Both the position numbers and the translations under genes were made by a program. A DNA stretch of 64,000 bases from Saccharopolyspora gloriosae (GTDB taxonomy: Bacteria; Actinomycetota; Actinomycetes; Mycobacteriales; Pseudonocardiaceae), in assembly GCF_022828475.1 (NCBI RefSeq), contig NZ_CP059557.1:3271470-3335469 (forward strand), written 5' to 3'. The stretch's first letter is position 1; each line of letters opens with the position of its first letter. The notes under the pieces are model-generated. The model was not told where the DNA came from, made no database searches, and saw only the letters and a program-made list of their open reading frames with translations. Below, piece after piece: positions 4,589-21,604 of the stretch.

Positions 4589-5442
4589 TTGACCGCTCCG
4601 GCCGTGAGCCCGGATCGCCAGAACCGTTGCAGCAGCAGGAAAGCGGCCAGCAGCGGCAGCACCGCCAGCAGCGAACCCGTGATGACCACCGGGTAGTATT
4701 CGGGCGACACCGTCGCCGCGCTGTTCCAGCTGTAGAGGCCGAGGCTCACCGGGTAGAGCTCCTGATCCGACAACATCACCATGGGCAGGAAGAAGTTGTT
4801 CCAGATCGCGGTGAGCTGGAACAGGAACACGGTCACCAGCCCGGGTCCGAGCATCCGCAGCGCGACCCGGAAGTACGTGGCCAATTCGCCCGCGCCGTCC
4901 ATCCTGGCGGCCTCCAGGACCTCGCCGGGCACGTAGCCCTCGCTGAAGATCCGGCCCAAGTACACGCCGAACGGGTTGAACAGCACCGGCACGAACACCG
5001 CCCAGAACGTGTTGACGACACCGAGGTGCGAGGCGATCAGATACAGCGGCAACGCGAGCACGGTCTGCGGCACCATCACCGCGGCCAGCACCAGGCCGAA
5101 CAGCTTCTCCTTGTGCCGGAACCGGTATTTGTCGAACGCGTAGCCGCAGGCGGTGCTCACCAGCGCGCTCAGCGCCGCGCCGCAGACCGCGTAGAGCAGG
5201 CTGTTGAAGTACCAGCGGCCGTAGATGCCGTCGTCCATGGCGAACAGCTCCCGCAGGTTCGCCACCGGTGTGAAATCCCGCAGCGTCAGCAGATCGCTGC
5301 CGAACACCGCGTCGGCGCTCTTCGTGGCGGCCAGCACCAGCCACAGCACCGGCAGTAGCGTGTAGAGCACCGAGACACCGACCACGACGTTGACCACGGC
5401 ACGGCCCAGCAGCCGGGGCCGCAACGAGTGCGCGGAGTTCAT
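4585..5442 (-). CDS. Carbohydrate ABC transporter permease (MalG/UgpE type)
   Basis: A 285-residue inner-membrane protein with about six hydrophobic segments. The EAA loop that docks the ATPase is clear in the second half (EAARMDGAGELATYFRVAL). The ATG at 5442 overlaps the stop of the first permease (ATGA), and the gene's own stop overlaps the GTG of the dehydrogenase. It is the second permease of a family-1 carbohydrate importer. No ATPase gene is present in the operon; actinobacterial sugar importers often share one MsiK-type ATPase encoded elsewhere, which is the likely explanation. Confidence 0.93.
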   Translation of the reverse strand: MNSAHSLRPRLLGRAVVNVVVGVSVLYTLLPVLWLVLAATKSADAVFGSDLLTLRDFTPVANLRELFAMDDGIYGRWYFNSLLYAVCGAALSALVSTACGYAFDKYRFRHKEKLFGLVLAAVMVPQTVLALPLYLIASHLGVVNTFWAVFVPVLFNPFGVYLGRIFSEGYVPGEVLEAARMDGAGELATYFRVALRMLGPGLVTVFLFQLTAIWNNFFLPMVMLSDQELYPVSLGLYSWNSAATVSPEYYPVVITGSLLAVLPLLAAFLLLQRFWRSGLTAGAVK

Positions 5443-15209: not shown

Positions 15210-16028
15210 ATGACGGACGGGAACTCGCGCCCGGATGCGGACCTGCGCACGGATCGCGCGCACGGTGCGCGGATCTACGACTACATCCTCGGCGGCAAGG
15301 ACAACTACGCCGTCGATCGGGCCGCGGGCGAGGCCGGCCTGCAAGTCTGGCCGGCGCTGGGCGTGCACATGCGGGCGAACCGGACGTTCATGCACCGAGC
15401 AGGCCGTTTCCTTGCGCAGGAGTGCGGCGTCCGCCAGTTCCTCGACATCGGCACCGGCATCCCCACCTCGCCCAACCTGCACGAGATCGTGCAGGAGGCG
15501 GCGCCCGAAACGAGGGTCGTCTACACCGACAACGACCCCATCGTGCTGGCGCACGCCCGTGCGCTGATGACCAGCGCGGAGCGCGGGCGCACCGCCTACC
15601 CCCAGTCGGACATGCGCGATCCCGAGGCGCTGCTGTCCGCCCCGGAGGTGCTCGAGACGCTCGACCTGGATCGTCCGGTCGGCCTGATGCTCATCGGGAT
15701 AGTGCACTTCATCGAGGACGACGAGGAGGCGCTGGCGGTGGTGCGCCGGATCATCGACGCCATGCCGTCGGGAAGCTACGTGGCGGCGACGGTCGCGACC
15801 GACGACTTCGCTCCGGAGCTGCTGGCCAAGGTCGCCGACACCTACCACGAACACGGCGAGACCCTGCGATTTCGGAGCAAGGCCGATTCGGAGCGGTTCT
15901 TCGACGGCCTGGAGTTGGTCGCCCCGGGCCTCGTCCAGATGCACAAGTGGCGCCCGGACGACGACGAGCACCTGGCGCTGGACGAGGCGGACATCGCGAT
16001 GTACGGCGGAATCGGCCGCAAGCCCTGA
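15210..16028 (+). CDS. SAM-dependent methyltransferase, SAV2177/DUF574 family
   Basis: A 272-residue protein of the Methyltransf_19 family, abundant in actinomycetes. The N-terminal signature ARIYDYILGGKDNYAVDR is diagnostic, followed by the SAM-binding strand FLDIGTGIPTSPNLHEIVQ and the second acidic strand VVYTDNDPIVLAHARAL. The ATG at 15210 follows GGTGGGAGCACG. Substrates are unknown for nearly all members. It is on the same strand as the lasso cluster but 336 bases upstream of the precursor with an AT-rich gap, so it is probably a separate unit; O-methylation of the peptide cannot be excluded, and lasso-tailoring methyltransferases belong to other families. Confidence 0.92.
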   Translation: MTDGNSRPDADLRTDRAHGARIYDYILGGKDNYAVDRAAGEAGLQVWPALGVHMRANRTFMHRAGRFLAQECGVRQFLDIGTGIPTSPNLHEIVQEAAPETRVVYTDNDPIVLAHARALMTSAERGRTAYPQSDMRDPEALLSAPEVLETLDLDRPVGLMLIGIVHFIEDDEEALAVVRRIIDAMPSGSYVAATVATDDFAPELLAKVADTYHEHGETLRFRSKADSERFFDGLELVAPGLVQMHKWRPDDDEHLALDEADIAMYGGIGRKP

Positions 16029-16364
16029 CCGACCGTTCCATCCGCATTCAGAACCCGGTGCCGGGCACGTGCGGTACGGCGATCGTGCCGGACCCGAACG
16101 CGACGGGACCGACTTTCGGATGTCCCGAATGCACGAGAATACGTCGAAAGCCTTACGGCTAAATAGTGAACGGGCGCAGTTCGTGAATTGAAAAATTTCA
16201 GCGGATCATAGTTGTTGACTTGATTTCTTCAAATGGCCTCGAGATGCCGAGTTGAACTTGTTCACTCGGATGTGCTCTTGCGGCGAGGAGAATCGCATCG
16301 CCAAACTGAGTTGGCCGGCAAGTGCATCGGCACCGCTCAATGAGAGGTTTGGTGAGATAATCCA
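16029..16364 (+). promoter_or_regulatory. AT-rich leader/promoter region of the lasso cluster
   Basis: About 336 bases without a gene, clearly richer in A and T than the rest of the window, especially 16155-16260. This is the expected place for the promoter of the lasso operon. I do not see a confident -35/-10 pair. An in-frame TGA at 16353-16355 limits the precursor start to the ATG at 16365 or a later Met. The possible ribosome-binding site is GGTGAG at 16351-16356. Confidence 0.5.
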
Positions 16365-16532
16365 ATGGATCCCAGCAAAGAAATGGAAACGAGTATCGGT
16401 GTGAACGATCAGCGGATGGCCTACGAGCCGCCCATGCTGTCGAACATCGGCGATTACTCCGAGCTGACGACCGGCTGTGGTTTCAACTTCTTCGAAGCCC
16501 CGGCCCAGCACAGCAATTGCAGCAATTGGTGA
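16365..16532 (+). CDS. Lasso peptide precursor
   Basis: A 55-residue peptide. The leader holds the YxxPxL motif recognised by the leader-binding B1 protein (Tyr20, Pro23, Leu25 in YEPPML). Thr35 fits the conserved Thr at the penultimate leader position, so cleavage after Thr36 gives the 19-residue core GCGFNFFEAPAQHSNCSNW. Gly1 to Glu8 would form the macrolactam ring. Cys2 lies in the ring and Cys16 in the tail, so one ring-to-tail disulfide is possible (the class III arrangement of BI-32169). The alternative cut after Gly37 gives Cys1 and a 7-residue ring to Glu7. Starts at 16365 or 16383 (ATG) are possible. The stop overlaps the GTG of the cyclase gene. Confidence 0.9.
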   Translation: MDPSKEMETSIGVNDQRMAYEPPMLSNIGDYSELTTGCGFNFFEAPAQHSNCSNW

Positions 16533-18397
16533 GCAAGTCCACCATCGCAGGTTGCCGTCAGAGCTGGTATCTGATCCTTCCGGATACGGATGCCGCTCTG
16601 GCGGTAGCCGGCATCCTCGGTGTGGAGCGACTCCAAGCGCTCCACCACCCCTCCGGGCGGCCGTGGGTGCTCGGGCGGTGGGCGCAGAATCAAATGACCT
16701 GCTTCGCGGACGCCCGATGTGCGACGGCGCTGCTCGGTGAGGCGTCCATCAGCGCGCACGTTCTCGAAGACATGTCCGCGAATCTTCGGAATGTGAACGA
16801 TGCGGACCGTTTCAGCAGTGAAGTCCCGGGCAGTTATCACCTCATGGTATCGATCTCGGGCCAGAGTCGAGTGCAAGGTTCCGTTTCCGGATTCCGCAGG
16901 ATCTTCTACGCGGATTTCGGCGGAGTGGCCGTGGGGTGCTCCCATTCCGACGTGCTGGCCGAACTCTCGGACGCAACGGTGGACGAGGAGGTGCTGGCGG
17001 CGAATTTGATGGCGCCCGCAGTTCCTTACCCGGTGGCCGATCGCTCCGTGTGGAGCGGCATCCGGAGCGTGCCCGAGGACTGCTGCCTCGAGATGGACGG
17101 AGTCGGCCGGCCCCGGCTGAGGCGGCGGTGGATTCCTCCCGAACCTGTGCTGACGCTGGAAGAGGGTGCGCCCCGGCTGGCTGAAGCGCTCAAGGATGCC
17201 GTCGCCGTCCGAACTCAGGGCGGCGGAGTGGTGAGCGCGGATCTGTCCGGCGGCATGGATTCGACATCGGTGTGCTTCCTCGCCGATCAAGGCCCGGCGA
17301 AGTTGGTGACCTTCACCCGCCTGAGCGCCGACACGGCGAACGACGACGAAAGCTGGGCGAAACAAGCAGCGGCCCAGCTCGATTGCGAAGATCACCTGTT
17401 CGCTCATCCGGACGACTTGCCCGGATTTCACGCGGACCTCCTGCACGCCGGCGAAGGCATGGACGAACCGGTGCTGAGCGGGCGTGTGCGCGGCGAGTAC
17501 CAGAAGGCGGCCGGATGGTTCAGGGCCGAAGGGTCGCGTGTGCACATGTCGGGAGAAGGCGGCGACCAGATCCTGCAGGCACGCCCTTCCTACATGCACA
17601 CGACCATTCGCCGCTTCCCCATCGCGGGGCTGCGACACGTGCGGGGAAATCTCGCGCAGAACCGGTGGGGATGGATGTCCACGCTGGGCGCGTTGGCGGA
17701 CAACCGGAGCTTCGGTCGCTGGCTGTCGGACTCGGCGGCCGACCTGTCCCCGAAACCGCTGTTCTCGAAGAGCGCGCAGATCGGCTGGCAAGCACCGGCA
17801 CAACTACCCCCGTGGGCCACGCCCGCCGCTGTCGACACCGTGTCGCGCCTGATGCGACGTGAGGCCGTCAACGCTCCGCCGCTGGCCCCGGACCGGGGGC
17901 AGCACAGCGTGCTGGGGTCCATCCGAGGCGGAGCCCGGCTGGACCGGCATTTGTGCGAACTCACCGCATCGCAGGGGGTACCGACCAGTTTCCCCTTCTA
18001 CGACGACAAAGTCATCGAAGCGGCGTTGGCGGTACGGCTGCACGAACGTACCGACCCCGCCAAGTACAAGCCGCTGCTCGTCGGCGCGATGGGCGGAACG
18101 GTCCCGGACGGCTTGCTCGGCCGCAGCACCAAAGGCGAGTACAGCACCGATTTGCGGCAAGGTCTGCTGGCTCGTCGGGACGAACTCGGCTCGCTGCTGG
18201 ATCGTCCCGTCCTGGCCGAACTGGGGTTGATCGACGCGGACCTGTTTCGCAGCGCTTGCTTCGGCCTGTATCCGCCTCGCCTGTCCCTCGTCGCCCTGGA
18301 ATCCACGTTGCTCCTGGAGTGCTGGGTGCGTTCGCACGTCGGGAGGCAAGGTCCTCCCGAACTCGTCCCCGTTCGAGGATCGGAGAAGCGCCCATGA
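16529..18397 (+). CDS. Lasso peptide macrolactam synthetase (asparagine synthetase-like C protein)
   Basis: 622 residues if started at the GTG at 16529, which overlaps the precursor stop (GTGA); a TTG at 16517 would add four residues. The protein has a degenerate N-terminal glutaminase-like half and a C-terminal ATP-pyrophosphatase domain with the PP-loop SGGMDSTS at residues 240-247. MSGEGGDQIL and YKPLLVGAMGGTVP are typical of lasso cyclases. The enzyme adenylates the ring Glu of the core and joins it to the freed N terminus. Its stop overlaps the B2 ATG (ATGA), so precursor, C and B2 are translationally chained. Confidence 0.93.
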   Translation: MSKSTIAGCRQSWYLILPDTDAALAVAGILGVERLQALHHPSGRPWVLGRWAQNQMTCFADARCATALLGEASISAHVLEDMSANLRNVNDADRFSSEVPGSYHLMVSISGQSRVQGSVSGFRRIFYADFGGVAVGCSHSDVLAELSDATVDEEVLAANLMAPAVPYPVADRSVWSGIRSVPEDCCLEMDGVGRPRLRRRWIPPEPVLTLEEGAPRLAEALKDAVAVRTQGGGVVSADLSGGMDSTSVCFLADQGPAKLVTFTRLSADTANDDESWAKQAAAQLDCEDHLFAHPDDLPGFHADLLHAGEGMDEPVLSGRVRGEYQKAAGWFRAEGSRVHMSGEGGDQILQARPSYMHTTIRRFPIAGLRHVRGNLAQNRWGWMSTLGALADNRSFGRWLSDSAADLSPKPLFSKSAQIGWQAPAQLPPWATPAAVDTVSRLMRREAVNAPPLAPDRGQHSVLGSIRGGARLDRHLCELTASQGVPTSFPFYDDKVIEAALAVRLHERTDPAKYKPLLVGAMGGTVPDGLLGRSTKGEYSTDLRQGLLARRDELGSLLDRPVLAELGLIDADLFRSACFGLYPPRLSLVALESTLLLECWVRSHVGRQGPPELVPVRGSEKRP

Positions 18398-18906
18398 GCA
18401 CACCGGTCTCGTTGGCATCCCGCGATCCCCTGCCGTGGTACCAGGGTCTGCGGGTGAAGCCGATCATCGCGGTCGCTCACCTGATCGGCCGGATGCGGCC
18501 ACGGCGGATTCGCCAGGTCCTCCGGCTTTGCGCGAGAAACGCTCGTCCTGCCGGGCGTGCGGAAGCCGAACGGGCTCGAAAGCTGGTCGTGGCCGCGAGC
18601 ATCCGGTGCGCGGGAGATGGGTGCGTACCGCGTTCGATCGCGACCGCACTGCTGTGCCGGACCAGGGGAACGTGGCCGACGTGGCAGAGCGGTGTGCGCA
18701 CCAATCCCTTTCTCGCCCACGCTTGGGTCGAAGTCGACGGCCACCCGGTCGACGAACCGGCGACCACCCTGGGCGTGCACCCCTTGATCACGGTACCGCC
18801 GGGTGCGGGACGGCTGCGGAACGTGCAGACGGCGCAACGGCTTTCCCGAGGAAATCACGACGATCCGCCGCGCGGATCGCCGGAACGACCAGTGCCGAAG
18901 GGCTGA
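18394..18906 (+). CDS. Lasso peptide leader peptidase B2 (transglutaminase-like)
   Basis: 170 residues from the ATG at 18394, which overlaps the stop of the C gene. The lasso B2 motif with nucleophile Cys77 is present (GDGCVPRSIATALLCR), with the catalytic His109 in NPFLAHAWVEVDGHPVDE and Asp115 or Asp120 as third residue. It removes the leader peptide so that the cyclase can act on the new N terminus. The N-terminal 50 residues are basic and amphipathic. B2 is encoded separately from B1, as is usual in actinobacteria, with the B1 gene 5 bases downstream. The order A-C-B2-B1 places B1 last. Confidence 0.9.
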   Translation: MSTPVSLASRDPLPWYQGLRVKPIIAVAHLIGRMRPRRIRQVLRLCARNARPAGRAEAERARKLVVAASIRCAGDGCVPRSIATALLCRTRGTWPTWQSGVRTNPFLAHAWVEVDGHPVDEPATTLGVHPLITVPPGAGRLRNVQTAQRLSRGNHDDPPRGSPERPVPKG

Positions 18907-18911
18907 TCCAC

Positions 18912-19166
18912 ATGTCTCTGGAACTTCGAAACCACGTCACCACCGCGGACGCTGACGACGGTGTCGCGTTGCTCGACGAAATCTCGGGCCAGTACTGGCA
19001 GTTGAACGGGTCGGGTGCCCAGGTCCTGCGGTTGATGCTCGACGGAGCGACGCAACAGGACGCCGTAGACCTGCTCACGAGCCGATATCGGGTGACGCGG
19101 GAACGAGCGGACGAGGACGTCACCTTGCTCATCGCCTCCCTCCAAGAGGCGGGGCTGGCCCAGTAG
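18912..19166 (+). CDS. Lasso peptide leader-recognition protein B1 (PqqD-like RRE)
   Basis: 84 residues. It is a PqqD-like RiPP recognition element: GVALLDEISGQYWQLNGSGAQVLRLML followed by a helical end that closes the winged helix. The conserved LLDExSGxYWQLN pattern is what binds the Tyr-Pro leader motif seen in the precursor. B1 delivers the precursor to the B2 peptidase. The ATG at 18912 lies 5 nt after the B2 stop, with GGGCTGATCC as the upstream stretch, so coupling with B2 is likely. Confidence 0.9.
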   Translation: MSLELRNHVTTADADDGVALLDEISGQYWQLNGSGAQVLRLMLDGATQQDAVDLLTSRYRVTRERADEDVTLLIASLQEAGLAQ

Positions 19167-19248
19167 CGGCCGGCTCGCTCGATTCGCGGTACGTCCACTC
19201 ACCGCGCCGGGGCTCGGCCGCCGCGGCACGGAACGGAAGGATCAGCAG

Positions 19249-20793
19249 GTGGAACGGAAGCAGACGACGGCCGAGTTGGACCATCGGCTTTCGACGTCCA
19301 AGCCCTTCGGCGACAGTGCCCACATACGCGATCAGTTCGAGTCGAACCAGAAGCTCAGGTTGGACAGGCTCGGGACGAGGTACCCAGCCGCCGCGTCACT
19401 TCTTGACGCTCTGCAGGAGGCCGAGCCGGACGCCCGGCACGAGGTGATCGGTGATCCGGCGCTGCGGTCGGTCATCATGAGGATGGGGGAGCCGGCGGCG
19501 CAGCCGGACCGCAGTGATCTCCCGGATGAGCAGGAGCGAGTCCTCCGGCAGGCGGTCGCGCACCTCGCGGAAGCTCGCCGCCACGGCCTTCTGGGTGAAG
19601 GAGGTTCCTCGAACGGCAGGTTGGGATCCGATGGGCGGCACGGCTGGGTGTGGCGGGAGTCCGACTCAGACGGTCCCGCCGAGAGCGCCTTCCGCGAGGC
19701 CGTTCGGGAACACTCCGGGATGCCGCTGCGCGCTCCGGAATCCGCCGACCTGGACATGTTGCGGCGAGGTGCCGAACTGCTCGCGGTGCTGCTTCCGAAG
19801 ATCTCCGCCGGAGTGCTGAGTCATGCGCACGTGGTCGCTGTGATCTCATCGGCCGGTCGGTGGAGCGGCGTTCGCTCCAATTCGCTGTTCCGGATCGGTG
19901 GTGCCGTCTTCCTCGGGAACGAGGCGATTCGGAACCCGTGGGTCGTGGCGGAATACCTGCTCCACGAGTCCCTGCACCAGAAGCTCTACGAGTTCCGGCA
20001 CGCGCACTCGTTGCTGAAGCGGGACCTGAACCCGACGCCGGACGGGACGGACCCGGCCCAGCAGCCTGCTGTCGTGGTGCCGTGGCGGCCACCCGGCGGG
20101 AACCGGGCGAACGAGTGGGACGTTTTTCGCGCCCTGGCGGCCTTCCACGTCTACGTGCACCTCGCGGTGTTGGCGGACGCCGCGGAGACGCGGGCGCAGG
20201 AACTCGAGGATGACTACGGGTGCCTGCACGACGCTCAACCGAGGATGACGAGCTCCCGCACCGCGACCCACCGGGCTCATTTCCTGGCCGATGGCATCCG
20301 GCGATCCTGCTGGGAAGAGCTGGGGCAGGCAGGGCGGCTGATGGTCGGGTGGCTGAACAGCGTGCTGCGCGACTTCGATCCGAACCCGCCGCCACCAGGA
20401 GCCGAGTTCCACCTGCTCATGGATCGCTACCTGGATGAAGCCCGCAGGCTCGAAACCCGAACCATGTCGGCGCGATCCCAAAGTCGGCTCCGGCCGTTGA
20501 TGGCGGACGAGATCCGACACGCCCAGCGCATCCTCGCCACCGCCGGACACCGGGCGGGCCGGGAGAAGTTCGACGAGGCGGTCACCCACCTCCAGCAGGG
20601 CGAGGACAAGCAGAGGTTCTGCCAGGCGCGAGCGCTGATCGCGGATTCGCTCCGGAGCTTGTCGCCGGACGGGTACGTGTTGCGGCCCGCCCCCGGTGGG
20701 TCCGACGAGCCCGGCGAAGCTCTGCGGAACATGATCGACGGTTCCAGCGAGAAGCTCACCGCAGTGGTCCTCGCGGACCCGCGGAGTTCCTGA
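19249..20793 (+). CDS. HExxH-motif protein, putative peptide-tailoring hydroxylase
   Basis: 514 residues from a GTG at 19249 with GGAAGGA 8 nt upstream, 82 bases after B1 on the same strand. The central block has HESLH at residues 239-243 and, about 35 residues later, VVPWRPP (PWR at 278-280) and a helix FRALAAFHVYVHLAVLA. HExxH plus PWR is the pattern of the mod_HExxH family found next to RiPP genes; some relatives are iron/2-oxoglutarate peptide beta-hydroxylases. In relatives as I recall them a Leu-His-Gly precedes the helix; here it reads Phe-Arg-Ala, so the third ligand may differ. No transmembrane or signal segment. Seen: motif and position. Inferred: action on the lasso peptide. Confidence 0.7.
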   Translation: MERKQTTAELDHRLSTSKPFGDSAHIRDQFESNQKLRLDRLGTRYPAAASLLDALQEAEPDARHEVIGDPALRSVIMRMGEPAAQPDRSDLPDEQERVLRQAVAHLAEARRHGLLGEGGSSNGRLGSDGRHGWVWRESDSDGPAESAFREAVREHSGMPLRAPESADLDMLRRGAELLAVLLPKISAGVLSHAHVVAVISSAGRWSGVRSNSLFRIGGAVFLGNEAIRNPWVVAEYLLHESLHQKLYEFRHAHSLLKRDLNPTPDGTDPAQQPAVVVPWRPPGGNRANEWDVFRALAAFHVYVHLAVLADAAETRAQELEDDYGCLHDAQPRMTSSRTATHRAHFLADGIRRSCWEELGQAGRLMVGWLNSVLRDFDPNPPPPGAEFHLLMDRYLDEARRLETRTMSARSQSRLRPLMADEIRHAQRILATAGHRAGREKFDEAVTHLQQGEDKQRFCQARALIADSLRSLSPDGYVLRPAPGGSDEPGEALRNMIDGSSEKLTAVVLADPRSS

Positions 20794-20824
20794 AGAGCCG
20801 GGGTGTGGTTCGACCGCGGCCGTG

Positions 20825-20860
20825 CCGTTGATCCCAGGGCGACCCCGCGGCGGTCAACGG
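20825..20860. terminator. Possible bidirectional terminator after the HExxH gene
   Basis: Inverted repeat CCGTTGA / TCAACGG with a GC-rich 22-base loop, in the 94-base gap between two convergent genes (HExxH, plus strand; F420-type reductase, minus strand). Position and symmetry only; no T tract. Confidence 0.35.
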
Positions 20861-20887
20861 ACGAGCCGTGGCTCCACCCGGAACGGG

Positions 20888-21394
20888 TCAGCGCGGCGTC
20901 GGGCTCGTCGTGTCGAGGCGGAGTTCGAGTACCGGTAGTGCGGTGTCCTGCTCGCTGATCGCCGTGCCGAGCGTGTTCTCCAGGACGTTCTTGAACTTCG
21001 CCCATGCCCGAGGGTGCTTGCGCGCGTAGGCCGTGAGCGCGGCGTCGGCCTCGCCCGTCGGCAGCCGCCGGGCGGTGGCGGGGGAGGAGTGGTGACCGGC
21101 GACCGAGACGCGGACCTGCGGGTTCGCCATCAGGTTGCGGTACCACTGGGCCTGCGAGCCGAACCCGGACGCGATGACGTAAACGTCCGGTGCGGGATGG
21201 CCGATGACCTCCAGCACGACGCGGCGCACGGCACCGGATTTGCGGCCGAGGTGCTCCAGCATGAGCAACCGCGAACCGAACAGGAATCCGAGGCGTGCGC
21301 GATAAAGCCAGATCGGCGCGCGCATCAACGCCCGGTTCCTGAGCAGCGCCGCACCGTATCGGCCGATCGCGGTCGTCCCGGTGGGGTCGGACAT
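20888..21394 (-). CDS. Deazaflavin (F420)-dependent nitroreductase family protein
   Basis: 168 residues of the DDN/FDOR-A split-barrel family. Key blocks are MLEHLGRKSGAVRRVVLEVI, the start of the barrel, and YVIASGFGSQAQWYRNLMANPQVRVSV, the cofactor-binding signature with Gln-Trp-Tyr. ARRLPTGEADAAL and a final helix complete the fold. Such enzymes reduce quinones or other substrates with F420H2. The ATG at 21394 is chosen over a TTG at 21400. It is convergent with the lasso operon and I see no reason to assign it to lasso synthesis. Confidence 0.9.
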   Translation of the reverse strand: MSDPTGTTAIGRYGAALLRNRALMRAPIWLYRARLGFLFGSRLLMLEHLGRKSGAVRRVVLEVIGHPAPDVYVIASGFGSQAQWYRNLMANPQVRVSVAGHHSSPATARRLPTGEADAALTAYARKHPRAWAKFKNVLENTLGTAISEQDTALPVLELRLDTTSPTPR

Positions 21395-21604
21395 GACCAA
21401 CCTCGTTTCCTCCGTTGCGGCGAACGTGCCGTTCGTGATGTCGGTGGCAAGGTATGTGAACCCGGTTGCGCGGGCGGCGAGCTGAGCCGCCGCTGGACGA
21501 CCCGCCCGACATCACCGTAGCCGCCGGTAGCGGTCGACCGGCTTGGGCACACAGGTCCGCGAGATCCCCTACCCGACCGCGACGTGGGCGGGTCGGTCTG
21601 GTTG

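Follow-up and report, generated by a model that had tools for sequence, protein, structure and literature searches.

Lasso peptides of class III, with a single cysteine in the ring and a single cysteine in the tail, are scarce, and little is known of how they are made. The excerpts of PMC9266682 drawn on here name BI-32169 and 9401-LP1, which agrees with the claim of an earlier note on the DNA described below that few are known, and they give the gene cluster of BI-32169 as not identified. Here we describe a small gene cluster in a 64,000-nucleotide stretch of Saccharopolyspora gloriosae (contig NZ_CP059557.1, 3,271,470 to 3,335,469; "the window", in whose numbering positions are given) that very likely produces a lasso peptide pinnable by one disulfide bridge. 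Two cysteines alone would not make it noteworthy: the cluster belongs to a small conserved two-cysteine lasso family, one branch of which carries a gene, here called H, for a homologue of HExxH-type oxygenases.

9401-LP1, a class III peptide from Streptomyces, resembles the predicted product of the window in having one ring cysteine and one tail cysteine, together with a YEPPALxxxG...T leader, and its single disulfide was measured as a gain of 2 Da on reduction (excerpts of PMC5974421). However, its core, AFGPCVENDWFAGTAWIC, starts with Ala and its ring cysteine is residue 5; furthermore, its cluster is described as having no genes beyond A-D (excerpts of PMC9266682), whereas the window has H. 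BI-32169, as given in the PMC12427821 table, shares with the window core a length of 19 residues, Gly1 and one ring-to-tail disulfide (only predicted in the window), but its sequence, GLPWGCPSDIPGWNTPWAC, has a 9-residue ring with the ring cysteine at position 6 and the tail cysteine last. A127-LP is typed as III in the excerpted table of PMC5974421, yet both of its cysteines lie in the tail.

Among lasso peptides with tailoring enzymes, we liken H to CanE, the cluster-encoded iron/2-oxoglutarate (2OG) enzyme of canucin A, which beta-hydroxylates the linear precursor with the aid of B1. In the same excerpts of PMC9266682, CanE is called a non-haem Fe/2OG enzyme and HExxH is not mentioned; the 14-residue canucin also differs in its core. 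The clusters of RES-701-3 and -4 (excerpts of PMC7280977) resemble the window in an extra gene behind the B genes and in a C-terminal Trp, and the RES product is hydroxylated. ResE, unlike H, has 209 residues, no known domain, a class II product and a role that is proposed. On this size and description, we rejected H as a homologous, ResE-like Trp hydroxylase. PosC, PflC, PesO and ChlH (excerpts of PMC12636437 and PMC13060819) are, like H, HExxH-type peptide oxygenases encoded beside genes for ribosomally synthesized and post-translationally modified peptides (RiPPs); however, a lasso precursor is not described there as their substrate, and H is remote from their family model. The targets of hydroxylation by HExxH enzymes given in the same excerpts are His, Asp, Phe, Gln and Pro; two of the enzymes also trim C-terminal tails oxidatively, which leaves an amide. 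In the open-licence papers searched, including the excerpts of PMC12636437, PMC13060819 and PMC12452194, we found no lasso peptide described as modified by an HExxH enzyme, and HExxH is absent from the text of a 2026 review (PMC13352647).

Extent of the lasso unit

The lasso gene cluster that the earlier note had recognized is confirmed, with all four of its genes in place, and family matches to each of them bear out the order A-C-B2-B1 (precursor, cyclase, B2, B1). The note had called 16365..19166 a complete core. Four lasso genes do lie there, but H was missed and the unit reaches 20793. Overall, that interpretation was partly supported, being right at the core but incomplete.

H (19249..20793, + strand) encodes a 514-residue homologue of alpha-ketoglutarate/HExxH-type peptide oxygenases (TIGR04267, E 1.1e-7), with HESLH at residues 239-243. 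Comparison of genomes indicates that H is part of this unit. A cyclase search of 390 genomes of the same family yielded one close relative, G116, which is from another genus (65% identity; the next was 44%). In G116 the genes A-C-B2-B1-H have the same order (64% identity for the cyclase and 49% for H in the comparison of the clusters); beyond the cluster itself, blastn matched nothing of the window in the 18 kb compared. The five genes, with no other gene recognized, make up an accessory segment (16032..20890, ends approximate) that has no counterpart in the same-genus genomes G003 and G004. Both of these have an empty site: in G003 the DNA to the left (to 16028) and to the right (from 20898) is ~250 bases apart, and in G004 (to 16031, from 20919) ~11 bases apart. 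A third same-genus species, G005, retains between the two flanks a frame-shifted remnant of the 3' end of H (L075 9738-10138), a short way past a methyltransferase gene; A, C, B1 and B2 are absent from the site, and we read the remnant as a decayed copy of the cluster. The other two of the five same-genus genomes, G001 and G002, were not comparable, as the two flanks matched at no single place. A SAM (S-adenosylmethionine) methyltransferase gene upstream (15210-16028) and an F420-dependent reductase gene downstream (20888-21400) were rejected as tailoring genes because they lie side by side without lasso genes in G003 and G004.

The residues H239, E240, H243, W279, H300 and R342 of H are kept in 31 to 33 of 33 aligned sequences. 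H300, W279 and R342 are common to 32 of the 33, among which both open reading frames (ORFs) of L013 lack the HExxH motif. All four members of the aligned H clade match TIGR04267 (E up to 0.001, best 3.6e-11), while Pfam has no family for H. Full-length relatives are those of G116 (50% identity), a plasmid of Streptomyces xanthophaeus (40%) and Nonomuraea gerenzanensis (32%). The Nonomuraea gene adjoins LanC and LanB genes (by Pfam), and a partial relative in Streptomyces goshikiensis adjoins a lanthipeptide (by annotation). Given these RiPP-side contexts, the H clade looks like one of RiPP-modifying enzymes. Some HExxH match was present in 32 of the 390 same-family genomes, and a scan for H in a collection of 84,980 species, in which two exact words were required, found none. 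On the S. xanthophaeus plasmid (NZ_CP116356.1; L089 7641-9527), the HExxH gene stands alone beside a 67-residue peptide with GGHHHHHDDDEPD (HHHHHDDD, a His5-Asp3 run); since HExxH enzymes have been reported to act on His and Asp, the two may be an undescribed RiPP pair.

The precursor gene A (16365..16532; all genes of the set are on the + strand) encodes 55 residues, a 36-residue leader and a 19-residue core. The leader scores 28.3 bits with lasso_leader_L3 (cut-off 19) and has a YxxPxLxxxG motif and a penultimate Thr. The asparagine-synthase-like cyclase C (16517..18397) carries an SGGMDS motif and matches PF00733 (Asn_synthase) at 116.5 bits (cut-off 21); its best NCBIfam model, macrolact_Ik_Al, gave 240.5, under that model's cut-off of 300. 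The transglutaminase-like leader peptidase B2 (18394..18906) matches PF13471 (Transglut_core3; 87.8 against 26) and NF033537 (lasso_biosyn_B2; 102.5 against 33), and its Cys77 and His109 are invariant in 109 of 109 aligned sequences. B1 (18912..19166), an RRE/PqqD-like leader-binding protein, scores 95.5 with NF033530 (lasso_PqqD_Strm, cut-off 70), obtained with a query one codon short, and 56.2 bits with PF05402. Cyclase, B2 and B1 follow the precursor on the same strand with near-zero gaps. The features by which we recognize a lasso cluster are present: a leader with penultimate Thr and canonical spacing, an Asn-synthase-like cyclase, split B1 and B2, and an acid at core residue 7-9.

For the cyclase, GTG 16529 is the likelier start. 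This GTG, in the cyclase frame, lies in the sequence TGGTGA, which also ends the precursor, so that the last Trp codon of the precursor overlaps the start codon. The overlap is identical in G116. Because the GTG lies inside the sequence that ends the precursor, A and C are probably translationally coupled. We rejected the gene order as unique, since C-B2-B1, although a minority order, occurs in 8 of 122 cyclases examined in 116 lasso loci (the window counted, for which the script gave B2-C-B1 on account of overlapping genes), against 93 with C-B1-B2; 19 cyclase matches, mostly the weakest, were left out of this sample. A transporter gene was recognized neither in the five-gene segment nor among the few neighbors scanned in G116. 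Behind B2 of the H-less cluster L215 lies an ABC transporter gene (by Pfam), and two ORFs of L085 were read as the same pair. We found no support for a phage origin: none of A, H and B2 could be assigned to a PHROGs family, and a scan of IMG/VR with the precursor pair gave no relative. The genome of the window has two more lasso cyclase loci, L172 (C1:4205000-4218500), with the core HSRPAKKDKAGRRRPRHILL, and L173 (C1:915500-929000), for which our script found no core.

A two-cysteine core shared by six clusters

The core (16473..16529, +), GCGFNFFEAPAQHSNCSNW, is predicted to form a Gly1-Glu8 ring that contains Cys2, with Cys16 in the tail, on the evidence of leader spacing and family alignment. 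We read 110 candidate precursors from the lasso loci, 108 of them with a ring acid; the penultimate Thr of the leader stands five residues past the leader Gly in 106 of these 108, and likewise in the window. The reading was checked against described peptides: the output of the script included the exact cores of A127-LP (L116 and L120; table of PMC5974421) and of felipeptin A2 (L155; table of PMC12427821). The cleavage position and the 8-residue ring predicted in the earlier note are supported by this spacing and by the retention of Glu8 in all six family cores described next.

A precursor-pair scan of the 84,980-species collection, which required the exact words CGFNFFE or YE[PA]PM[LM][SC]N and to which Asp5 variants are invisible, added one member, Streptomyces adelaidensis. 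Among 392 genomes from its genus there were three more strong precursor matches besides itself, and six weaker matches (L218-L223) were excluded from the family as other lasso types. The cores of the six members are GCGFNFFEAPAQHSNCSNW, GCGFNFFEWPAQHSNCGSW, GCGFNFFEMPAQHNIC, GCGFDFFEMPAQHNIC (twice) and GCGFDFFEIPAQHNIC. Glu8, Cys2, Cys16 and the string PAQH are present in all six. The window and G116 cores are identical at 16 of 19 residues (10 identical codons and 6 synonymous), compared with 10 of 17 in the stretch of leader that adjoins the core. In a quick maximum-likelihood tree of cyclases (131 rows), the two H-bearing clusters pair with a Shimodaira-Hasegawa-like approximate likelihood ratio test (SH-aLRT) value of 100, the four Streptomyces-type clusters group (100), and both groups together with L070 form one seven-row set (97). 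L070, which lies inside this set, has another core type.

All six family cores have a single ring cysteine and a single tail cysteine. That Glu8, Cys2 and Cys16 are kept in every one of them while the leaders diverge supports a class III-like product, with the disulfide and the threading predicted, and agrees with the reading of the earlier note. Exactly one ring and one tail cysteine were found in five of the 108 cores: the window, G116, S. adelaidensis, L159 and L183. The last two, from other clusters, have the class III-like cores GACSRTPEGRPRLYYFDC and WVCVGWVPDFFCTFGG. The strings GCGFNFFE, GCGFDFFE, CGFNFFE and CGFDFFE were not found in the open-licence papers searched, and the lasso peptide table of PMC12427821 holds no sequence similar to the window core; within that scope the core is, as the earlier note had proposed, unlike described lasso peptides.

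Other cysteine arrangements were seen in the loci examined. L187 has three precursors near the cyclase at 5323, with three cysteines each (SNCGRTWEWVFCGESRC, GPCGNQWEWIACGTEC and GGQGCNWEWIGCGWC), an odd number that does not fit the four disulfide classes. L218, L220 and L221 have paired precursors with adjacent ring cysteines (ITCCGRWIDNIWVSAWFDF, FGCCGRWLDNPFGYGWFDF and similar), whose cores vary mainly in the tail. Cores starting with Cys1, with three or four cysteines and an end rich in His and Trp (e.g., CGKCGWGRDRYCRRGHHHWCW), occur in L083, L093 and L095. In L219 three different lasso precursors lie behind the B genes of one cluster.

Proposed biosynthesis and possible role of H

We consider it reasonably likely that the five genes form one lasso operon, which would make a class III-like peptide from a precursor oxidized by H; that an HExxH-type oxidation of any kind befalls a lasso peptide here is likely. 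We infer the cleavage and ring chemistry from homology: B1 would bind the leader, B2 would cleave after Thr36, and the cyclase would close the ring about the threaded tail by bonding the Gly1 amino group to the Glu8 side chain, with Cys2 of the ring and Cys16 of the tail forming one disulfide. H, as an iron/alpha-ketoglutarate enzyme of the HExxH type, probably oxidizes a residue of this precursor. Most likely it would act before cleavage, while the precursor is still linear, and hydroxylate a beta-carbon of the C-terminal half; by analogy with CanE we expect B1 to help. The earlier note had expected a product mass of the core minus 18 or minus 20 Da. This is probably incomplete, because the co-inherited HExxH oxygenase gene had been missed; with H as an extra modifying enzyme, the final mass probably differs from the core minus 20 Da. 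The monoisotopic masses computed for the core are 2114.836 when linear, 2096.826 as a lasso, 2094.810 as a lasso with the disulfide and 2110.805 when one oxygen is added to the last; residues 1-16 with the disulfide would have 1707.656 as the acid or 1706.672 as the amide.

Several observations weigh against H as an oxygenase of this peptide. Its TIGR04267 (alpha-KG-HExxH peptide beta-hydroxylase) score of 32.1 bits does not reach the cut-off of 40, for which reason we call it a remote relative and not a filed member. A sequence search of the PDB with H returned a single chance-level match (E 0.39), and the four-member profile returned none. An AlphaFold2 model of H made with no alignment was unusable (mean predicted local distance difference test, pLDDT, 42.4). 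The H-bearing clusters are only two and are each other's closest relatives, and the existence of four related lasso clusters without H means that H is not needed for the lasso itself.

That H-type genes are otherwise rare near lasso genes speaks, by contrast, for H as part of the lasso unit. Across flanks with a median length of 5.9 kb per side, falling to 0.4 kb at contig ends, two of the 116 lasso loci had H. An expanded H model added one weak match, in L107, which is the B1 of that cluster (111.9 bits with the B1 model against 20.4). Nine further loci from the genus of S. adelaidensis had no H; the sole match in that set, L224, had been chosen for its H gene. The whole genomes of the four Streptomyces-type members also gave no H, in a search where G116 served as positive control only beside S. 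adelaidensis.

It is conceivable, though unlikely, that the product is a plain class III-like lasso peptide and H a neighbor with another substrate. The four relatives in whose loci and genomes no H was found have a near-identical core, H falls under its family cut-off, and the 40%-identical homologue sits outside any annotated lasso cluster, all of which would suit a mere neighbor. Short ORFs do lie upstream of the precursor in the segment, which was not searched systematically for further small peptide genes. However, H has the same position and order in G116 amid unrelated flanks, and within the genus it is missing or decayed where the lasso genes are missing. These observations argue for H as a part of the operon that oxidizes the precursor.

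The site of such an oxidation may be hinted at by the family itself. According to the excerpts of PMC13060819, a residue that occurs only alongside the enzyme gene is a hint to the target; here both members with H, and none of the four without, have Ser14-Asn15 and the [SG][NS]W tail, a contrast of two against four related clusters with no independent replicate. The C-terminal Trp as proof of the H target is weakened by the sharing of its codon with the cyclase start in both H clusters. Because the two clusters are related and share this overlap, we treat the co-occurrence with H as a lead only.

We also weighed a different reaction, which we think rather improbable, in which hydroxylation by H at the alpha-carbon of Ser17 or Gly17 would release the final three residues and leave the lasso with a Cys16 amide end. 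The three-residue extension past Cys16 is confined to the two members with H (0 of 4 without), and trimming would place the end where the H-less relatives stop by sequence. Moreover, oxidative cleavage of C-terminal tails at Ala is described for PosC and PflC, and for PosC also at Gly in a variant, with an amide left behind (excerpts of PMC12636437). Against this, the residue at that position in the window is Ser17, and in the same excerpts PosC oxidized a Ser there without cleavage. The extension may also be a side effect of the TGGTGA overlap, and there are two cases only.

That Cys2 and Cys16 are not paired with each other, one of them being put into another bond by H or another step, is very improbable: an alpha-ketoglutarate enzyme making a Cys-Tyr crosslink is mentioned in excerpts of PMC12636437 and no thiol oxidase gene was recognized in the segment by NCBIfam or Pfam matches, but both cysteines are retained in the H-less relatives, and further lasso disulfides seem to arise without a dedicated enzyme (excerpts of PMC9266682). 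Similarly, we give very little credence to a core that begins one residue later, with a 7-residue Cys1-Glu7 ring; the leader end Thr-Thr-Gly would let either Thr be penultimate and class I lassos begin with Cys (excerpts of PMC9266682), but the five-residue spacing from Gly to Thr fits Gly1 instead.

If trimming by H were true, the [SG][NS]W end of the precursor would be disposable and the product would be a disulfide-pinned lasso that stops at Cys16 with an amide terminus. More generally, the six natural clusters share one conserved two-cysteine core, four without and two with an added oxygenase, and so offer a comparison of one scaffold in the presence and absence of a tailoring enzyme. If H acts on the peptide, alpha-KG-HExxH chemistry would extend to lasso peptides, and the paired clusters would make the target residue directly testable.

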